Positions 51,577 through 62,600 of a DNA stretch of 64,000 nucleotides are shown here, piece after piece. Made by a program: the position numbers and the translations under genes. Every line of letters begins with the position of its first letter. The first letter of the stretch is position 1. This DNA comes from Lineus longissimus. Its lineage: Eukaryota > Nemertea > Pilidiophora > Heteronemertea > Lineidae. A model generated the notes under the pieces. It worked only from the letters and a program-made list of their open reading frames with translations, was not told the DNA's origin and did not search any database. The DNA lies in NCBI RefSeq assembly GCF_910592395.1, contig NC_088312.1, positions 7,378,001-7,442,000 on the forward strand, written 5' to 3'.

Positions 51577-54500
51577 ATGAATACTCCATGGCGTAAGACA
51601 AGAACAATTCTTCACGTAAGGCTTCCCACTTCTGTTCAGTTCACACAAGGAAATAATAACATGGTGGACTCTAAAATTCGTAGTTTAGCCAACATTCAAA
51701 ATCTACATGCCAAAATGGGAACGTCGTTTAACAGTCGATTAATAATTTTAATATTCGGTGGATTTTCTGTTGCAATCTTTTTACTTTTCTCCCTGCCGGC
51801 GGATTTGTTTCTTGAACATGAGGCGATTAAAAAGACCCCAGAAAAGAAACAGGATCAATTTGTGAAGCCTTGGCCAGAGCTGCCAACATTTCCTCTTTCG
51901 GACCTAGCTCTGTCGGAATCACAATCGGGGAGAGTACAGCGGGGTCCATCATATACGGGCCTGAAGAGTCGCCTCATTCTGTCCAAGGATGCTGTCAAAC
52001 CAGTGGCATTCAGCAGGGGGAGTTTCGTTTTAGATAAGGCGTTTGTGGTTAAGGAACTTCAGAACTACTCGGCACCGACTACAGAGGAATTGAGTTTCGT
52101 CCTGCAGAAGGAGAAGGGTTTTGATATGAAGGTACACATGGTACAATAGAACCTCCCCGCCTTGGGGACATCTCTGCCAGGCGGACACATCTGCATTACG
52201 GACATGTCCTGTTGTTGTGGCCTCCAACATGGCTGATTGTAAAAACACTCTATTGGATGGCGATAATGCGGAAATGTCCCTATTAATGACACCTCTCTAG
52301 TACGGACACCAATGCGCAACCCTGTCTAAAGTTTTAAAAGCTATACAAGTATTTGAAGGTTACTTAAGAATGCATAGGCATGAGTGCAATGACATACATA
52401 TACATGTAAACATGACATATACAACGATAAAATGCTTCTTTTTCAGCCTCCTGACCACTTCTTGACAGCCTGGAAGAATCCCTGTTGGAAGGGAGACAAC
52501 ATGGTCGGTGGGACGTATTTGAAGTGCCTTCCCTACTTCTACATCCTGGGCTTCCCTAAGTGTGCCACCACGGACCTCTGGCAGAAGATGAAGCTCCACC
52601 CAGCGATAGAAGAAAATGTCCCCAAGGAAACACATTGGTGGAGCAGGCTTCGATATAATGGACCAAGTTAGTAACTAAAGTATCTTCCCGCTGCGTAACT
52701 TTTCTCCTCCGCGCCTCCTTTTCCATACATGCACACTTCCTCTTACTCAACCTGCACAAATCAACTCATCGTCGACTTGCGTGTTTGTGCTATCCCGCCT
52801 TACACTTGAATAGGTCATTAGAGAGATAAAGTTACATATGTATACGTATCGCGTTATGGGACCAATGACTACACGATGCGAAAACATAATAACCAGTTAC
52901 AATTGAAGAAGGCGTCATTTTTATAGGAATTGGAGGCAATATACAGTCCGTTGTGTTCAGAGCTCGTCCCCGCGATAGTCCAGCTACTGCTTTCTGGCCG
53001 TCCACCATGGTGGATCATTTGTTTCGTGGTCGAATTATTACTACATGTTTATATCAAAAAGATAGATAACATTCGCAGATTGCATTGAGCCTGAGTAAAA
53101 CTTTGACAAACGAGGTAAACCTCTTTGTGTATTTGTTTCAGATATGACTATGAGTCAGTACTACGCCGGGGAACTGTTTGGCAAACACATGATGCAGAAC
53201 GTGAACAAGTCTTCAAAATCTTGGGTCCTTGGTAAGTAACCCAAGTCGATGGTCCATCAGTCACACTATTTTAATCAACTGTTTAATTATTGTATCTCCT
53301 TGGCTTTGCCGTCCAATTATATATATAATATGAAGTATCTTCCTTTCCTTTCCTGCCAGCTGATGGATCGCCATCCTACGTGTACGAAGGTCACAATGAA
53401 ATACGCTACAATATGATAAACGGGGCAGACGGTTACATGCACCTTGACCCACCTGCACCCAGGGTCCTCGTCGGTCATCTGATCAAACAATACACTCCCA
53501 AGGCAAAGTTTGTGCTTATGCTGCGTAACCCAACGGACAGGTAAGAATTTTAAAAATTGTTGGAAGTATGACTATTTCCAAAACATCGCCTGATCTTTGT
53601 CGCCAAACTGAGCTAAAACTGAAATCATGACCAGCGTGTATTCCAGCAGACGGGTATACGACATCGGGAAGCAAAGGCGCAAGACATTCGCTTTGGCCAA
53701 CTAATAACTTTTTAGACAATGCCACCATTTAAATATTCAAAAAAAGTTGTTGGTAATCATATGATTTTTGAGCTGAGGGTACATGCAGTTTATTTGGACT
53801 GCACTAATTACCCTTAGCTAAAAACTCAGTTGGTTCTCCCCAGTGTAATGGATATTCAAATTCAATTCAATACAAATGTTCAAATTTAGGCCCATTTTTC
53901 CTCTCGAAATCTAGGTGGTGATGACCTATTTTTTCTCTCTATTTCTGGCTGCTCAGACCGAGAAGAAAAACATATTAAAGCAACTGTAGTTCGATTTGTG
54001 TCCACAAGAAAACGCAATAAATATCGAATGGTGATGCTCACCTCGGTTTCACCTGTTTGCATGCTCAGCTGAACTTTGGTAATATTGATTTTAAAGGTGT
54101 GCATGTCTTTTTCCAGGATATTCTCGCACCACGTGTATTTCGGCACCAAAGGATACAAGCGTGACTTCGCCTTCCGGCGCTCTCCCAGAAAGCTTCATTA
54201 CCTTGCGCTGCGAATGATCAACCTGTATAAGCAATGCTTCTCGGAGAAGCCCATGAGACAGTGTATGTACGACCCCGTCCTCTACAGGGAATGCGAGGAG
54301 AGCAAGGTCCGGCTCGACAGGAGCATGTATTCATTCTTCATAAGCGACTGGCTCAAGATATTCCCCCGAGAACAGTTCTTCATCATCACGCTTGATGAAT
54401 ATTCAGACGATAACAAAAGATGGACGATTTTAAAGGAATTGTTCAAATTTTTAGAATTACGTAAGTGAGGAGAATATTCGGTCTTTAGCCAGAAAGAAAC

Positions 54501-56004: not shown

Positions 56005-56710
56005 CATTACCAGCTATTGCGGGCCTAGCCAATTAAGCCAATTAGTGCACCTGCTAAATTGGTCCTGGCAAGCCTAATGGAAAATGCATAGGAAATATCA
56101 ATAAAGTTGGCTTTTTGGGCGGGGTGTAAAAATAATCCCAACTCCCGACTTCTGACATAATTCTATATATGTCTAGGTATTTACTGGCAAAATTTGGAGT
56201 GATTTGGATGGAAATTCGATGTGTCCATCTATAGGTTGAAAATTTTGGTAAATCTGTAATGCTTCACTCGTAGCCCGTAGTGTTAATTCCTGAGAAAGTG
56301 GGTTTTGGGGGCTTTTCTAGCTGCGCTAGCTCCGAAACTATACATTTGATACAAACTCCCGACTTCAGACGTGGTTGATATAACTCTTAGGATTATATTC
56401 CCAAGATTTCAGCTTTATTGGAGAAAAATTCATAGTGTCCATAGGGGGGTTGAAAATTGGAGGATTTTCAATTTTTTTCCTAACAAATATGCGAAAAATA
56501 TTACTTTCCACCTAGAATTAATCAAAATTTCGCAAACTATCATAAAGTACTTCCTTGCAACAATCATTTGTGAAGCTTTCAAAACTTTTGGCTGATTTAT
56601 TTGACCCTAAATCAGCAAAAACCAAACATTTTAGTGTTTGTATGCACCAATGCACAGGAGGCTAATTGCCAGATTAATTCACACCTTTCCAATCTCAAAC
56701 AATATAGACC

Positions 56711-57431
56711 GAGAGCCAGCTCAGTTTCAATTACACTATTGAGAACGAAAGGTTTGATGTTCTTATTACATTGAGAGTGTTTGGTGATGGTATAAAAACG
56801 ATTTCTTGCATGTCACATTCCTGGTCTGAAGGTTGTGTAAACCCTTTAATACCCCCCAAAAAGCATGTTCAATTACACTTTGGAGAACAAAACCTGAAAT
56901 GTCTTTTTAAACATCTACTTTGACCACTTAATGATAAAATGTCACACAAGAAAAAAAAATCACGGGCGATGGGTACCCAAGAAGGCCCTCAATAAGGGCC
57001 CAAAAGGGTATCAATTACACTTTTGAGAACAAGTCTGCAACTCACACCAATTAATCCCACTTTATCACTGATTACAAAAATGTAACACAAGAAAATAAAT
57101 GTACTGGCAGTTTTAGACAAGAAGGGTCCTTAAGGGACAAAAAGGGTCACAATTACAGTTTTAAGAACACATCTGAAATTTACACCAATGAATCCCATGA
57201 TAACACTGATGATAAATATGTAACCCAAGAAAAGATAAACCTTGGCATTTTTTATCAAGAAGGACCGCGGTAAGGGTAAAAAAAGGGTATCAACTACACT
57301 TGGAGGAACAATGCTGAAATTCAGAATAATGAATCACACGTGTCCCCTGATCATAAAAATCTAGCACAAGAAAAGGAATTTCCTGGCATATCTGAACAAG
57401 AGGGGTTCTTAATGGTCAAAGGGGTCACTGT
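56711..57431. repeat. Left TIR arm, five units of about 141 bp
   Basis: The word AATTACACT, followed by GAGAACAA, recurs at 56729, 56871, 57013, 57151 and 57292, giving spacings of 142, 142, 138 and 141. Each unit also contains TGATAAAATGTAACACAAGA and an AAGAAGGxCCTxAAGGG palindrome-like segment. The arm is therefore a small tandem array that is itself one half of an inverted repeat. Confidence 0.8.
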
Positions 57432-57885
57432 AAAATACGAAGCTCGCTTCTTTTAATGCCTAGTACCATTCATGATAAAATGATAAGTTTTCATTTTCAT
57501 TTTCTGTAAACATTTTTAGTTATTTTGTGAGTCACCAACCAGTTTTAATGGAATAGCAACAGGACCTACAGATGCCTATAATAGTAATAGGCCTACTGTC
57601 CTACTGTCCTATCTCTTAGTCCTACTTCTGATCATAAGATCAGACGTGTCAGGCCGTATCACAAGGGACGTGTCCACATCAATGCAGTGGTGAAATGCTA
57701 CTGGGATGGTGTTCAAGTCAATATTTAATTTCCTTGGCATGAGGTAAATCGGAATCTGATGGAAAGTGTCGTGATCAGTTACGTAACGATGTATTTTTCG
57801 CAACACTGATTGAAAGCTGAGATAAATACAAGGTAAGGATTAGTTAAATCGAATTGATGAACCAACAGCAACAGTTGTAGAAAAG

Positions 57886-60654
57886 ATGCCGGTGATTGGT
57901 AGAGAAAGGAAGCGCCGCAGATTAGATGTTCCAAGTACTGCCCTACCTCCATACAGGAAAAAACCACGAATGGACAACTTTGCCTATGAAAAGAAAGATT
58001 TCAGGGAACTTCCAGATGTGTCCAAGGAGTCAAGAAAGCTTGACTTCTTATGGATGGCAGCCCATGCATTTGAAATAGAGAACGTCCCAATGTGGATAGG
58101 TTTCAATGCTCGGTATTACGTCGACCATCTCCCAAAGCAGGTTGTTCTGTACATGCCAAATATCGATCGCTCACCGACGAATGATGATATTGTAGTGGAA
58201 ACGCTGTCCCTTACCCAAAAGTGTGCTCAGGAGTGCGAACAACCATACGGCGTTGTTTCCTACGATCTTGATGTTGCTAAAAGGGCTACAAAGATCAAAG
58301 TCACTGAACAGCCACGATTTGATGACGTCTTCGTAATGTTCGGAGCATTCCATTTACAGATGTGCCTCTTCCGCGCAATCGGCAAGATCATCAAGGAATC
58401 AGGAATGCCAGAGATGTTAGTTGAAGCCAACGTTCTCGCCCCAGGGTCTTTGAATGGTTTCATTGACTGCACCAACTTTGCCCGCTGTAAGCGACTCCAC
58501 CCAATGCTGTCCCTGGCATTTCAAATTCTGCACTTCCGCAAATTCTGCAGCACTCACCAGTTGGACAGCGTCAGGGAAGCGATACATTTGGCAACTCTGG
58601 ATGACAAAGGTTCCCTAGAACAGCTATCTGAGTCGACCATCTTCATCAAACTATTCGACGACTACTATCACTTCATTGGAGAAAACCTAGAAGGCAAACA
58701 TGGCCTCACAGCAAGGTTTTGCATGCAGTACGTTCAGATGATAGACCTCTACCACATCATCGACCGAGCTGTTAGGGAGTCAAATGTCGACCTATACATT
58801 TGGGCCCTAACCCCAACAACCGACATATTCTTTGGTGCCAATCGATCAAACTACGCCAGATGGATGTCAAAGCATCAACTTGATTTGATGAACATCGACA
58901 TAACTCATCCCGGCCTGAAGGAGATGCTCGCTAACGGACTCTTCAGCATACGCCGCTCAAACAATCAGTTCAGCAGGGTACCAGTGGATCTGACTTTAGA
59001 GCAGACTGTCAATGCTGACGCTGCATCAAGAATGACAGGCTACACAGATGCCACGAACAACTACCATGCAAGACTCAGATGGAGTGTCACAAAAAGTGCC
59101 AGAGCAGCTCTGATAAGTGCGATGCTCGAGATGACCGGAATGAGGAAAACCAATGATGCAGCAGCTGAACTGTCTCCCAGCCGCATTTCCCGTGACAACC
59201 AAGATCTGCAGAAGCTCATAGCCACCATCGAAGCCTCAGCAAATCCATTCACCATAGAGTCTGAGTATCTCATCAACATTCAAACAGGGAAAGGTGCGAC
59301 GAAGGTGATTAGCGAGTCCTTGTTGAGCGTTGAAGAAAAAGGAAAAGAGAAGCACAATGCATTTGTCTTGGAATGTGTAGGAGATCCGGAACGTTTTGAG
59401 AAAGCAATTCCACGTAACAAACTTAAAACTTTTGCAGACCAGGGGGCAAAGAACAAGAGCAGCAACAACCCGATTCTGAAAGAACTTGGATGCACTCGAG
59501 ATCTCTTTGGTCGTATTGCGATTATTGCTGTGAAGAAAAAGGTTGACCTAGAGTACCTGATGACATTCCCCTTAACGCCCGTACCTCTGACTATGTGTAG
59601 GACTGATGGAACAGTTGTCACCATGGCCCACGGAGTCAAGAGTAGCCTTTTCACCACCCTGGAGGAAAAAGTTGCTGATCATGGCAGTCCACCGGATGTA
59701 AAGACAACAGTCATTGATGGCAACTTTCTCTTTCACTGCCTTCCACCGAATCTACCACCAACGTACGGTGGCCTCGCTAGGGCTATCCTCCACTTAGTGT
59801 TATCGCATCGATCGGAGAGGGTTGATATCGTCTTCGATACATATGAAGAACCCTCCATCAAGGGAGGTGAACGAGTCAGACGCGGAGCAGTAGATGCCGT
59901 CTACACCATCAGTGGATCAGGACAGCTCCGTCCACGTGACATCGAAAAGGCTCTCCGATCCTCATCATTCAAGCAACAACTGCCACGGTTTCTGTTAAAA
60001 GCCTGGGCCGAAGAGTGGCATGCCGCCATTCTCGATGGCAGGGAACTCTATGTCGGGGTCGATTCGGAGTGCGTTCGATTTAGAGGGGTCAATGGGAAGG
60101 TAATAGCCGAGTCCATTCCACACTTGTCATGTAACCACCCAGAAGCGGACACAAGAATATGCTTGCACATGGCCGATGCTAACTCATCATTGCGAGAAGG
60201 AGACTTGGTAGTGAGAGCGACGGACACCGACATTCTGGTAATTCTTCTCCATCAATGCCACAAGATGTCCATGGGTGTGTGGATGGATGTTGGTTCATCG
60301 GGTCGTGGGACGAGGCGCTTTGTGAACATCACCTCCATTGCAACGCAAGTTGGCTCCAAGGTTTGCAAGGCTCTACCAGGATTCCACTCGTACACAGGCT
60401 GCAATTACACTGCGGCTTTCATCAGGAAGGGAAAAAAGCGTCCACTTGCCATTGCTGAAAAAGATGATAGATTCTTGGAAGCATTCGCAGCGTTAGCCAC
60501 AGGGCCAGTCAACGATGCCACATGCAAGGTCATTGAGGAATACACTGCCATGATGTATGGAGCAAGAAACAAGAAAATATCTCTAAACCAGCATAGACAC
60601 ACGATATTTGAGAAGGCCTTTGGACCAAAGAAAGGAAAGAATCTGTTTGCCTGA
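57886..60654 (+). CDS. Transposon-encoded protein with FEN1/XPG-like (PIN) C-terminal pattern
   Basis: One 922-codon exon between the long inverted repeats. A basic N-terminus (RERKRRRLD) suggests nuclear entry. The first half carries motifs I associate with a multicopy, uncharacterised invertebrate protein family: VMFGAFHLQM (150-159), SNYARWMSKH (321-330) and DLTLEQTVNADAA (368-380). The second half shows the acidic-motif order of FEN1/XPG nucleases: D611 in VIDGN, D651 with K659 in VFDTYEEPSIKGG, E753 and D755 in HPEADTR, D780 and D782 in RATDTDILVIL, then GCNYTAAF with N840, where the family usually has Asp. That Asp-to-Asn change could weaken metal binding. No familiar DDE motif set is evident. 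It probably serves mobilisation of this element; the function is inferred. Confidence 0.75.
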   Translation: MPVIGRERKRRRLDVPSTALPPYRKKPRMDNFAYEKKDFRELPDVSKESRKLDFLWMAAHAFEIENVPMWIGFNARYYVDHLPKQVVLYMPNIDRSPTNDDIVVETLSLTQKCAQECEQPYGVVSYDLDVAKRATKIKVTEQPRFDDVFVMFGAFHLQMCLFRAIGKIIKESGMPEMLVEANVLAPGSLNGFIDCTNFARCKRLHPMLSLAFQILHFRKFCSTHQLDSVREAIHLATLDDKGSLEQLSESTIFIKLFDDYYHFIGENLEGKHGLTARFCMQYVQMIDLYHIIDRAVRESNVDLYIWALTPTTDIFFGANRSNYARWMSKHQLDLMNIDITHPGLKEMLANGLFSIRRSNNQFSRVPVDLTLEQTVNADAASRMTGYTDATNNYHARLRWSVTKSARAALISAMLEMTGMRKTNDAAAELSPSRISRDNQDLQKLIATIEASANPFTIESEYLINIQTGKGATKVISESLLSVEEKGKEKHNAFVLECVGDPERFEKAIPRNKLKTFADQGAKNKSSNNPILKELGCTRDLFGRIAIIAVKKKVDLEYLMTFPLTPVPLTMCRTDGTVVTMAHGVKSSLFTTLEEKVADHGSPPDVKTTVIDGNFLFHCLPPNLPPTYGGLARAILHLVLSHRSERVDIVFDTYEEPSIKGGERVRRGAVDAVYTISGSGQLRPRDIEKALRSSSFKQQLPRFLLKAWAEEWHAAILDGRELYVGVDSECVRFRGVNGKVIAESIPHLSCNHPEADTRICLHMADANSSLREGDLVVRATDTDILVILLHQCHKMSMGVWMDVGSSGRGTRRFVNITSIATQVGSKVCKALPGFHSYTGCNYTAAFIRKGKKRPLAIAEKDDRFLEAFAALATGPVNDATCKVIEEYTAMMYGARNKKISLNQHRHTIFEKAFGPKKGKNLFA

Positions 60655-60997
60655 CTGAAGGGGTTAGATGCAAGTTGCATTCCACCGTGCGAGAATGTTG
60701 TCAGGCAGAAAATCTACAGGAGCAACTATGATCTGGCATGCAGCCTGTGACAACTTGGTGCCAGACGAACCCAATCAAGGATGGGGGGGAGTGGACCCCG
60801 ATGATGAGAGCTCCTACAAGATCGTGTGGTTCACATGCCAGCAGATGCCCGATAGTGCTTTACCAGATGAGACGGAGGCGGACAACAGTGATGAGGAGGG
60901 AGACATGCTGCCTGAGCACTATGACTTTGACGTGGATGATGACGATGACTCAGACAGTGAGGTTGTCCAGCAAACTGATGACGTCGACTCGGACTAG
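60655..60997 (+). pseudogene. Split C-terminal continuation of the transposon protein
   Basis: After the TGA at 60652 the same frame continues with family-like sequence (DASCIPPCENVVRQKIYRSN) to about 60729. One frame over, MIWHAACDNLVPDEPNQGWG and an acidic tail (EADNSDEEGD ... DVDDDDDSDSE) run to the stop at 60997. Together these look like the normal C-terminus of the family, separated by one stop and one frame change. A separate small ORF starting at ATG 60668 is an alternative, but its first 20 codons lie out of the homologous frame. Confidence 0.5.
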
Positions 60998-61185
60998 ATT
61001 ACTAAACTTAGTAACAATTAACCGAGTTTCAACCCTCATCACATAGATACGATAACGATCATATAAATATCATTATGATATCGAGCAAGATATAAACTTA
61101 TAAATGAGTACCATGAATGACAAAATGGATAAGAAGGATATCATTTTATTTGTAAGTGAATCAAGAAATATAAGACTTTGACGTT

Positions 61186-61214
61186 GGGGAGGGGGGAGGG
61201 GGAGGGGGAGGGGC
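61186..61214 (+). repeat. G-rich tract (possible G-quadruplex)
   Basis: Four or more runs of four to six G separated by single A, within the element's 3' region. It could form a quadruplex. Confidence 0.5.
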
Positions 61215-61802
61215 ATGGTAGCAGCATGTTCTTTTTAATATCTGTACTACTTTGTAGCCATTTTTAGTTGAGTTCAAACTAGTGTTTGTGAAAACAATGT
61301 ACGGTAAAGTTTGAGTGTTCATTATTCGTTTTCATGAAAATATTCAAATGTATTTTGTAGGTTCATTTACATGTAGATTGGTCTATTTGCTTGAATAATT
61401 GTTCATGATAAAACACCGTTGTGTATTGCTTTTAAAAGCTTTTTAAACCAGTTTATTCTTTCTGATACTTTTCATCTGTAGACAATCATGAATCTGATGG
61501 TAGTACTGTTTTTACATCCCTTATCTGCCTTGTATTGTAGTAACCTCTTCATCATTTCAGGAAAGCTTACATGTAATAAAAGTCATTAAAATTTGTTATA
61601 CACACCCAATTATCTTCACTTGGTCTTTTTGCATATGTAAAAAGTAAAGTAACCAGCTAATATCTGGTATCATTCAGACCCTTCTAGCAGGGAGAAGGCA
61701 CTTCTTGATTCCCAGTTGACTTTTACCACCCCGTAAATGGTCCTCATTATGATACTCACCTTATCAGGAACATTAATCCTTGGTTATTTTGGAAGGTGTA
61801 AG

Positions 61803-62530
61803 CGAGACCCTTGTTGACCATTAAGAACCCTTCTTGTTCAGATATGCCAGGAAATTTCTTTTCTTGTGCTAGATTTTTATGATCAGGGGACACGTGTGAT
61901 TCATTATTCTGAATTTCAGCGTTGTTCCTCCAAGTGTAATTGATACCCTTTTTTTACCCTTACCGCGGTCCTTCTTGATAAAAAATGCCAAGGTTTATCT
62001 TTTCTTGGGTTACATATTTATCATCAGTGTAATCATGGGATTCATTGGTGTAAATTTCAGATGTGTTCTTAAAACTGTAATTGTGACCCTTTTTGTCCCT
62101 TAAGGACCCTTCTTGTCTAAAACTGCCAGTACATTTATTTTCTTGTGTTACATTTTTGTAATCAGTGATAAAGTGGGAATAATTTGTGTGAGTTGCAGAC
62201 TTGTTCTCAAAAGTGTAATTGATACCCTTTTGGGCCCTTATTGAGGGCCTTCTTGGGTACCCATCGCCCGTGATCTTTTTTTCTTGTGTGACATTTTATC
62301 ATTCAGTGGTCAAAGTAGATGTTTAAAAAGACATTTCAGGTTTTGTTCTCCAAAGTGTAATTGAACATGCTTTTTGGGGGGGGGGGGGTATTAAAGGGTT
62401 TACACAACCTTCAGACCAGGAATGTGACATGCAAGAAATCGTTTTTATACCATCACCAAACACTCTCAATGTAATAAGAACATCAAACCTTTCGTTCTCA
62501 ATAGTGTAATTGAAACTGAGCTGGCTCTCT
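61803..62530. repeat. Right TIR arm, five units of about 141 bp (inverted)
   Basis: The reverse complement of 56711-57431. The stretch from GTAATTGAAACTGAGC back to the G13 tract at 62376-62388 matches the left arm at essentially every base I checked over about 110 bp. Confidence 0.8.
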
Positions 62531-62600
62531 AACTAATAGGAATGATGGAGTCTCCCTCTATTCAAAACAGAGTGTGCTAGGCCCGCAATAGCTGGTAATG

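Follow-up and report, generated by a model that had tools for sequence, protein, structure and literature searches.

Transposons of the AcademX group encode an XPG-like nuclease; an earlier note on the DNA studied here likewise mentions such a nuclease as reported for some Academ elements. In the relevant passages of the literature, the Academ superfamily is listed among those with a DDD/E transposase (PMC9587614) and is described as DDE/D and rich in bivalves, with curated elements that average 5,565 bp (PMC10294476). Target duplications are given as 3 or 4 bp for AcademX and 9 or 10 bp for AcademH, and are linked to the encoded nuclease and helicase (PMC10045372). The locus compared with these systems lies in the nemertean Lineus longissimus, in a window (the whole stretch analyzed, 64,000 nucleotides) at positions 7378001-7442000 of contig 5 (NC_088312.1) of the 391-Mb, 30-contig assembly that was searched. 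At window positions 56005-62600, one mobile element is nested in another: a miniature inverted-repeat transposable element (MITE), the smaller repeat, is split by a damaged Academ-type transposon. The inner element (56705-62535, forward strand, 5,831 bp) is very probably a defective, internally deleted AcademX-type copy of the Academ superfamily that jumped into a 762-bp MITE, most likely by the mechanism set out below.

The boundaries and the empty site can be read directly from copies of the MITE that lack the insert. When the first 1,001 bp of the feature were compared with the genome as DNA, 40 scored matches came out of 220 first-look candidates, namely the window itself and 39 other places, all 39 aligning to the first 700 bp only, at 99%. 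The seven loci cut out from these (L002-L008) hold 762-bp elements with identical 25-bp ends on both sides. In 7/7, the sequence is continuous across the point where the long arms start in the window; six read CTCAAACAATAGGAATG, and L004 is one base off. At this point the window has ...CTCAAACAATA, followed by 5,831 bp and by ATAGGAATG..., and joining its flanks with a single ATA retained gives a sequence identical to L002 at 758/762 bases. Because 762-bp copies without the insert carry the same ends and the joined flanks match L002, the 25-bp ends are those of the MITE; because the joined flanks with one ATA restore the MITE, 56705-62535 is a separate insertion with a 3-bp target duplication, ATA. 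The left part of the MITE (56005-56704, forward strand) opens with the 25-bp terminal inverted repeat (56005-56029) and closes with one copy of the duplication as its final three bases. The second ATA (62536-62538) begins the right part (62536-62600, forward strand), which ends with the other 25-bp repeat (62576-62600).

The earlier note had placed one 6.6-kb element within these exact 25-bp inverted ends. The ends are present as claimed, but together with the 700 bp inside the left one they belong to the MITE, and the single element was rejected since the ends match 762-bp copies without the insert. The fuller proposal, one 6.6-kb transposon that lacks a DDE transposase and relies on a structure-specific nuclease to move, is very improbable: an open reading frame (ORF) does lie between the 25-bp ends and its nuclease domain is real, but the boundaries are already refuted by MITE ends found without the insert, the inner element is bounded by ends and a duplication of its own, and relatives of its protein have conserved D, D and E residues in an RNase H-like arrangement.

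The inner transposon begins TAGACC and ends AACTA, with siblings that have the same ends. Its left terminal inverted repeat (56705-57426, forward strand, 722 bp), with subrepeats spaced 138-142 bp, has its mate in the right one (61806-62535, reverse strand, 730 bp). The claim of long, near-identical inverted arms was borne out, 709/722 aligned bases (98%) being identical. Further copies were taken from a genome search with the translated ORF, which gave 53 matches (312 candidates, 49 scored), and their counts are lower bounds. Window aside, seven matched pieces show at least 95% identity: residues 681-922 on C15, residues 1-166 and 782-922 on each of C8 and C14, and residues 1-160 and 782-922, about 12.5 kb apart, on C3. 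In the stretches around these pieces (L049-L053), the main collinear parts are ∼97-99% identical in bases to the element, while internal deletions vary by copy, with one shared by L049 and L050. No complete copy of this close family was found among the matches of this lower-bound search. The window copy is without an N-terminal part that L049-L051 retain.

Both ends (TAGACC.../...AACTA) were read in L049, L050 and L053, with duplications CTA, TTA and TGA; in L051 only the left end was seen, and in L052 no end was found by the end words used. In L053 a second right end (8815) follows the first (7397) at a distance of 1.4 kb and shares its outer flank, a pattern that a local duplication would leave. 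Distant relatives follow the same plan: L058 spans 7,354 bp with duplication ATA and L054 spans 6,852 bp with duplication TTA, their inverted arms (705 and 468 bp, respectively) being 94-95% alike and their ends beginning TAG or TAA. An exact 3-bp duplication was present in 6/6 elements with both ends read and a 4-bp one in 0/6, counts that include a small freedom of choice, as the ends of L054 and L058 were set by the analyst to begin with TA. The count leaves out L055 and L056, whose ends were not read, L057 and L060, in which the fetched stretch shows no long inverted arms, and L059, which the fetched stretch truncates. A 4-bp duplication, AATA, was an early reading for the window and was dropped when sibling ends gave 3 bp. 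Copies span 4.6-7.4 kb. With its own ends, a 3-bp duplication and siblings elsewhere, the DNA is that of a transposon, as the earlier note had supposed.

The 922-codon ORF was found as described, at 57886-60654 (forward strand). Judged against homologues and siblings, it is an incomplete gene cut at both ends, the remnant of a transposase-nuclease gene of ∼1,550 codons. A search with the ORF found 114 homologues (7,987 candidates scored), 76 of which were aligned; those of ∼1,500-1,600 residues typically start 440-600 residues upstream of the ORF start, and most extend ∼100 residues beyond its end. On the upstream side, sibling alignment places at 57855-57856 a junction where L049 holds 2,071 bp extra, coding the N-terminal part of the protein. 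In this part L051 reads AFDNYDELTQTLSGTDTLHDTMG, in one frame with what is the ORF start in the window. Because sibling N-terminal coding runs in frame into the ORF start, translation of the intact gene probably did not begin at the ATG at 57886. On the downstream side, the TGA stop (60652-60654, forward strand) is a sense codon in 4/4 siblings (L049, L050, L052 and L053), and an 8-bp deletion relative to the same four (60726-60727) shifts the frame of the C-terminal tail. The rest of this acidic tail lies in another frame at 60728-60997 (forward strand), where it was detected by tblastn with P0001, P0002, P0003 and others.

A further lesion is at codon 840 (60403-60405, forward strand), which is Asn here and Asp in 69/70 homologues and in the same 4/4 siblings. 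The motifs listed in the earlier note (D611, D651/K659, E753-x-D755, D780-x-D782 and GCN at 838-840) are all present, but GCN is a change specific to this copy. Because the first Asp of its DDE triad is gone, its last nuclease Asp is changed and its frame is broken, the copy should need other copies to move, and would be movable only with protein from a relative. That the locus is instead a domesticated host gene derived from a transposon is extremely unlikely. The 922-codon frame is still open, but it is truncated at both ends, carries copy-specific changes at catalytic positions and sits in a MITE between terminal repeats that are 98% alike. These lesions, together with the close siblings at other places, led to the rejection of this alternative.

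For the DDE triad, D127 (58264-58266) and E372 (58999-59001) are the candidate second and third residues; the stretch between them (58264-59001, forward strand) lies in the DUF6589 region of the ORF, located by conservation and Pfam. D127 is found in 62/62 and E372 in 75/76 homologues with a residue at that column. AlphaFold models were made of the window ORF (77 rows, mean predicted local distance difference test score 86.7) and of P0008 (61 rows, 85.6), a 1,190-residue relative still carrying the AFDN motif. The first domain of the P0008 model has predicted strands at 114-120 (D119), 137-144, 248-256, 285-289 (D290 next) and 311-315, and predicted helices at 263-279 (after strand 248-256), at 291-303, after strand 311-315 and at 531-548 (E536). 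This predicted order is the one seen in RNase H-like DDE transposases that carry an insertion. In the A2 alignment (60 rows besides P0008), counting rows with a residue at the column, D119 is kept in 47/52, D122 in 52/52, D290 in 60/60 and E536 in 59/60; the window copy is gapped at columns 119 and 122, and the first Asp of the triad is absent from it.

The earlier note saw no familiar DDE signature. The window copy lacks the first D, but fuller relatives have conserved D, D and E; in P0008 these residues stand in a predicted RNase H-type strand/helix order, which contradicts the view that the nuclease replaces a DDE transposase. For the first half, the strand/helix order of the P0008 model fits an RNase H-like fold, but no database fold match was obtained. 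A few integrase, reverse transcriptase or Argonaute chains appeared in the fold searches at E ∼0.7-4. The lack of a prominent RNase H or transposase match there carries no weight for or against such a fold, because the nuclease domain filled these lists. A literature search on DUF6589 found no paper.

The C-terminal half contains a predicted FEN1/EXO1/XPG-fold nuclease domain (residues 584-894; 59635-60567, forward strand), identified from the model, VIA-align matches and conserved acids. Fold matches to FEN1/EXO1/XPG were obtained from both the window model and the P0008 model, in agreement with the FEN1/XPG-type nuclease predicted in the earlier note. Across the 76 aligned homologues, the acids D611, D651, E753, D755, D780 and D782 show little or no variation, and presumably correspond to the metal-binding acids of FEN1. 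The family has the ordered set of such acids, with Asn at the last Asp in the window copy. The predicted fold and ordered acids are shared with FEN1/EXO1/XPG (and XRN) nucleases, but identity in fold alignments is ∼8-16% and the domain of the element is fused to a transposase. Sequence searches of the PDB with the ORF and the A1 profile returned 0 matches up to E 10. Pfam XPG_I was found at 4 genome places, none at these elements, and was absent from the Pfam families given for the ORF and for 7 scanned relatives. In a viral fold library, most of the named top matches were large-virus exonucleases of the XRN type; Wsv139-like nimavirus proteins also matched, at E 5e-3 and 5e-2.

The earlier note held that a relationship to Academ should be tested first, and by published description the fit to AcademX is good. 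As far as that description extends, the family resembles AcademX in combining a DDE-type domain with a FEN1/XPG-fold nuclease, in its 3-bp duplications (6/6 elements, against the 3 or 4 bp described) and in copies of 4.6-7.4 kb. It has the DDD/E triad and the encoded nuclease; unlike AcademX, the window copy is broken, its first Asp being gone. AcademH belongs to the same superfamily in this literature, but has a helicase and 9-/10-bp duplications, versus 3 bp here (PMC10045372). No helicase was among the Pfam families for the window ORF or 7 relatives (five longer than 1,500 residues), a separate helicase gene not having been sought. A literature search for Academ with XPG gave nothing relevant among the papers listed.

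Several observations weigh against the AcademX-type reading. The assignment was made by description, with no reference Academ sequence compared. The DUF6589 match in the ORF (residues 134-373, E 3.2e-6, 26.6 bits) falls just below the curated cut-off of 27; among 7 scanned relatives the match is weak in 6 (P0114 at E 0.071), above the cut-off in none and missing from P0043. Column 119 is Asn in 5/52 rows, and D122 may be catalytic in place of D119. The evidence for the predicted RNase H-like fold is the order of secondary-structure elements and the conserved residues, not a fold match. For the nuclease domain, Foldseek E-values are weak: no match to the window model has a value of 0.001 or lower, P0008 has one such match (XRN2), and XRN2 ranked level with FEN1/EXO1 for the window model.

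The fuller relatives encode a single protein of ∼1,550 residues that comprises an N-terminal part, a DDE-type domain of predicted RNase H-like fold into which a large helical segment is inserted (the DUF6589 region) and the C-terminal FEN1/EXO1/XPG-fold nuclease. Whereas this anatomy can be read from the sequences and models, we infer the chemistry of the AcademX-type element, and the job of each domain, as follows. Most likely, the DDE domain would carry out cut-and-paste, binding the long arms via their subrepeats, and its joining reaction would leave a 3-bp stagger at the target. The nuclease fused to it probably acts during excision or joining, where it would trim or cut a flap or a hairpin-like end. 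That the nuclease of this same element is the family's main cutter, cleaving the first or the second strand at the ends and leaving to the DDE domain no more than strand joining, is unlikely. DDE enzymes of other superfamilies cleave with no such partner. The nuclease acids are conserved at least as well as the DDE residues, but conservation by itself does not reveal a job; the duplication-length difference between AcademX and AcademH, tied by the authors to nuclease and helicase (PMC10045372), also speaks for the nuclease as cutter.

The claim of a nuclease-only transposon is replaced by an apparently already known kind of element, a transposase fused to a FEN1-like nuclease. The models and intact-looking relatives such as L058 supply residues for probing the role of the FEN1-like domain in Academ transposition. 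At eight alignment columns checked in the distant open frames of L058 (1,589 codons) and L057 (1,627 codons), both retain the nuclease acids as well as D119, D122, D290 and E536. L058 (1841-9194 of its stretch, on C12) shows 29% identity and combines long inverted arms and the ATA duplication with an open frame in which both residue sets are intact. L058-like matches occur on C3 and C12, at four places of nearly equal score, each with a 1,596-codon open frame, which suggests that this subfamily may be recent.

Most of the feature seems ordinary; the manner in which the MITE inserts seems odd. The earlier note had proposed a genome search for further copies with the same 25-bp ends, which belong to the MITE. 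A 19-bp end word of the MITE, allowing one mismatch, occurs genome-wide at 123 forward and 115 reverse sites (238), against 0 and 0 for a reversed-pattern control. From the loci fetched (L002-L028 and L061-L080), 37 copies had both ends read, L011 and L012 having one flank pair in common. An identical base lies immediately outside both ends in 33/37 copies, and likewise in the window copy. The 4 exceptions are recorded as matches over 2-3 bases (L027, CA; L069/L070, GTA; L075/L076, CT) and no match (L017). A binomial test of 32/36 matching copies (L016 left out) against an assumed 30% gave 3e-13.

On sequence, these flanks look as if they were a 1-bp target duplication. Such a duplication is unusual, and this integration geometry is not known from any eukaryotic superfamily. 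Tentatively, and with the balance tilted against it, the putative transposase of the MITE might join with a stagger of about one base, producing 1-bp duplications in a geometry that fits no familiar eukaryotic superfamily; if this is true, that transposase would be worth finding. A literature search on 1-bp duplications found no paper for the phrases tried, and no autonomous partner was found among the end sites listed. Facing MITE ends more than 762 bp apart, sought by eye among these sites, were the window pair (6.6 kb), one at 2.2 kb and one at 1.6 kb.

Upstream of the feature, the window holds a short ORF at 54103-54468 that appears to be part of a sulfotransferase.
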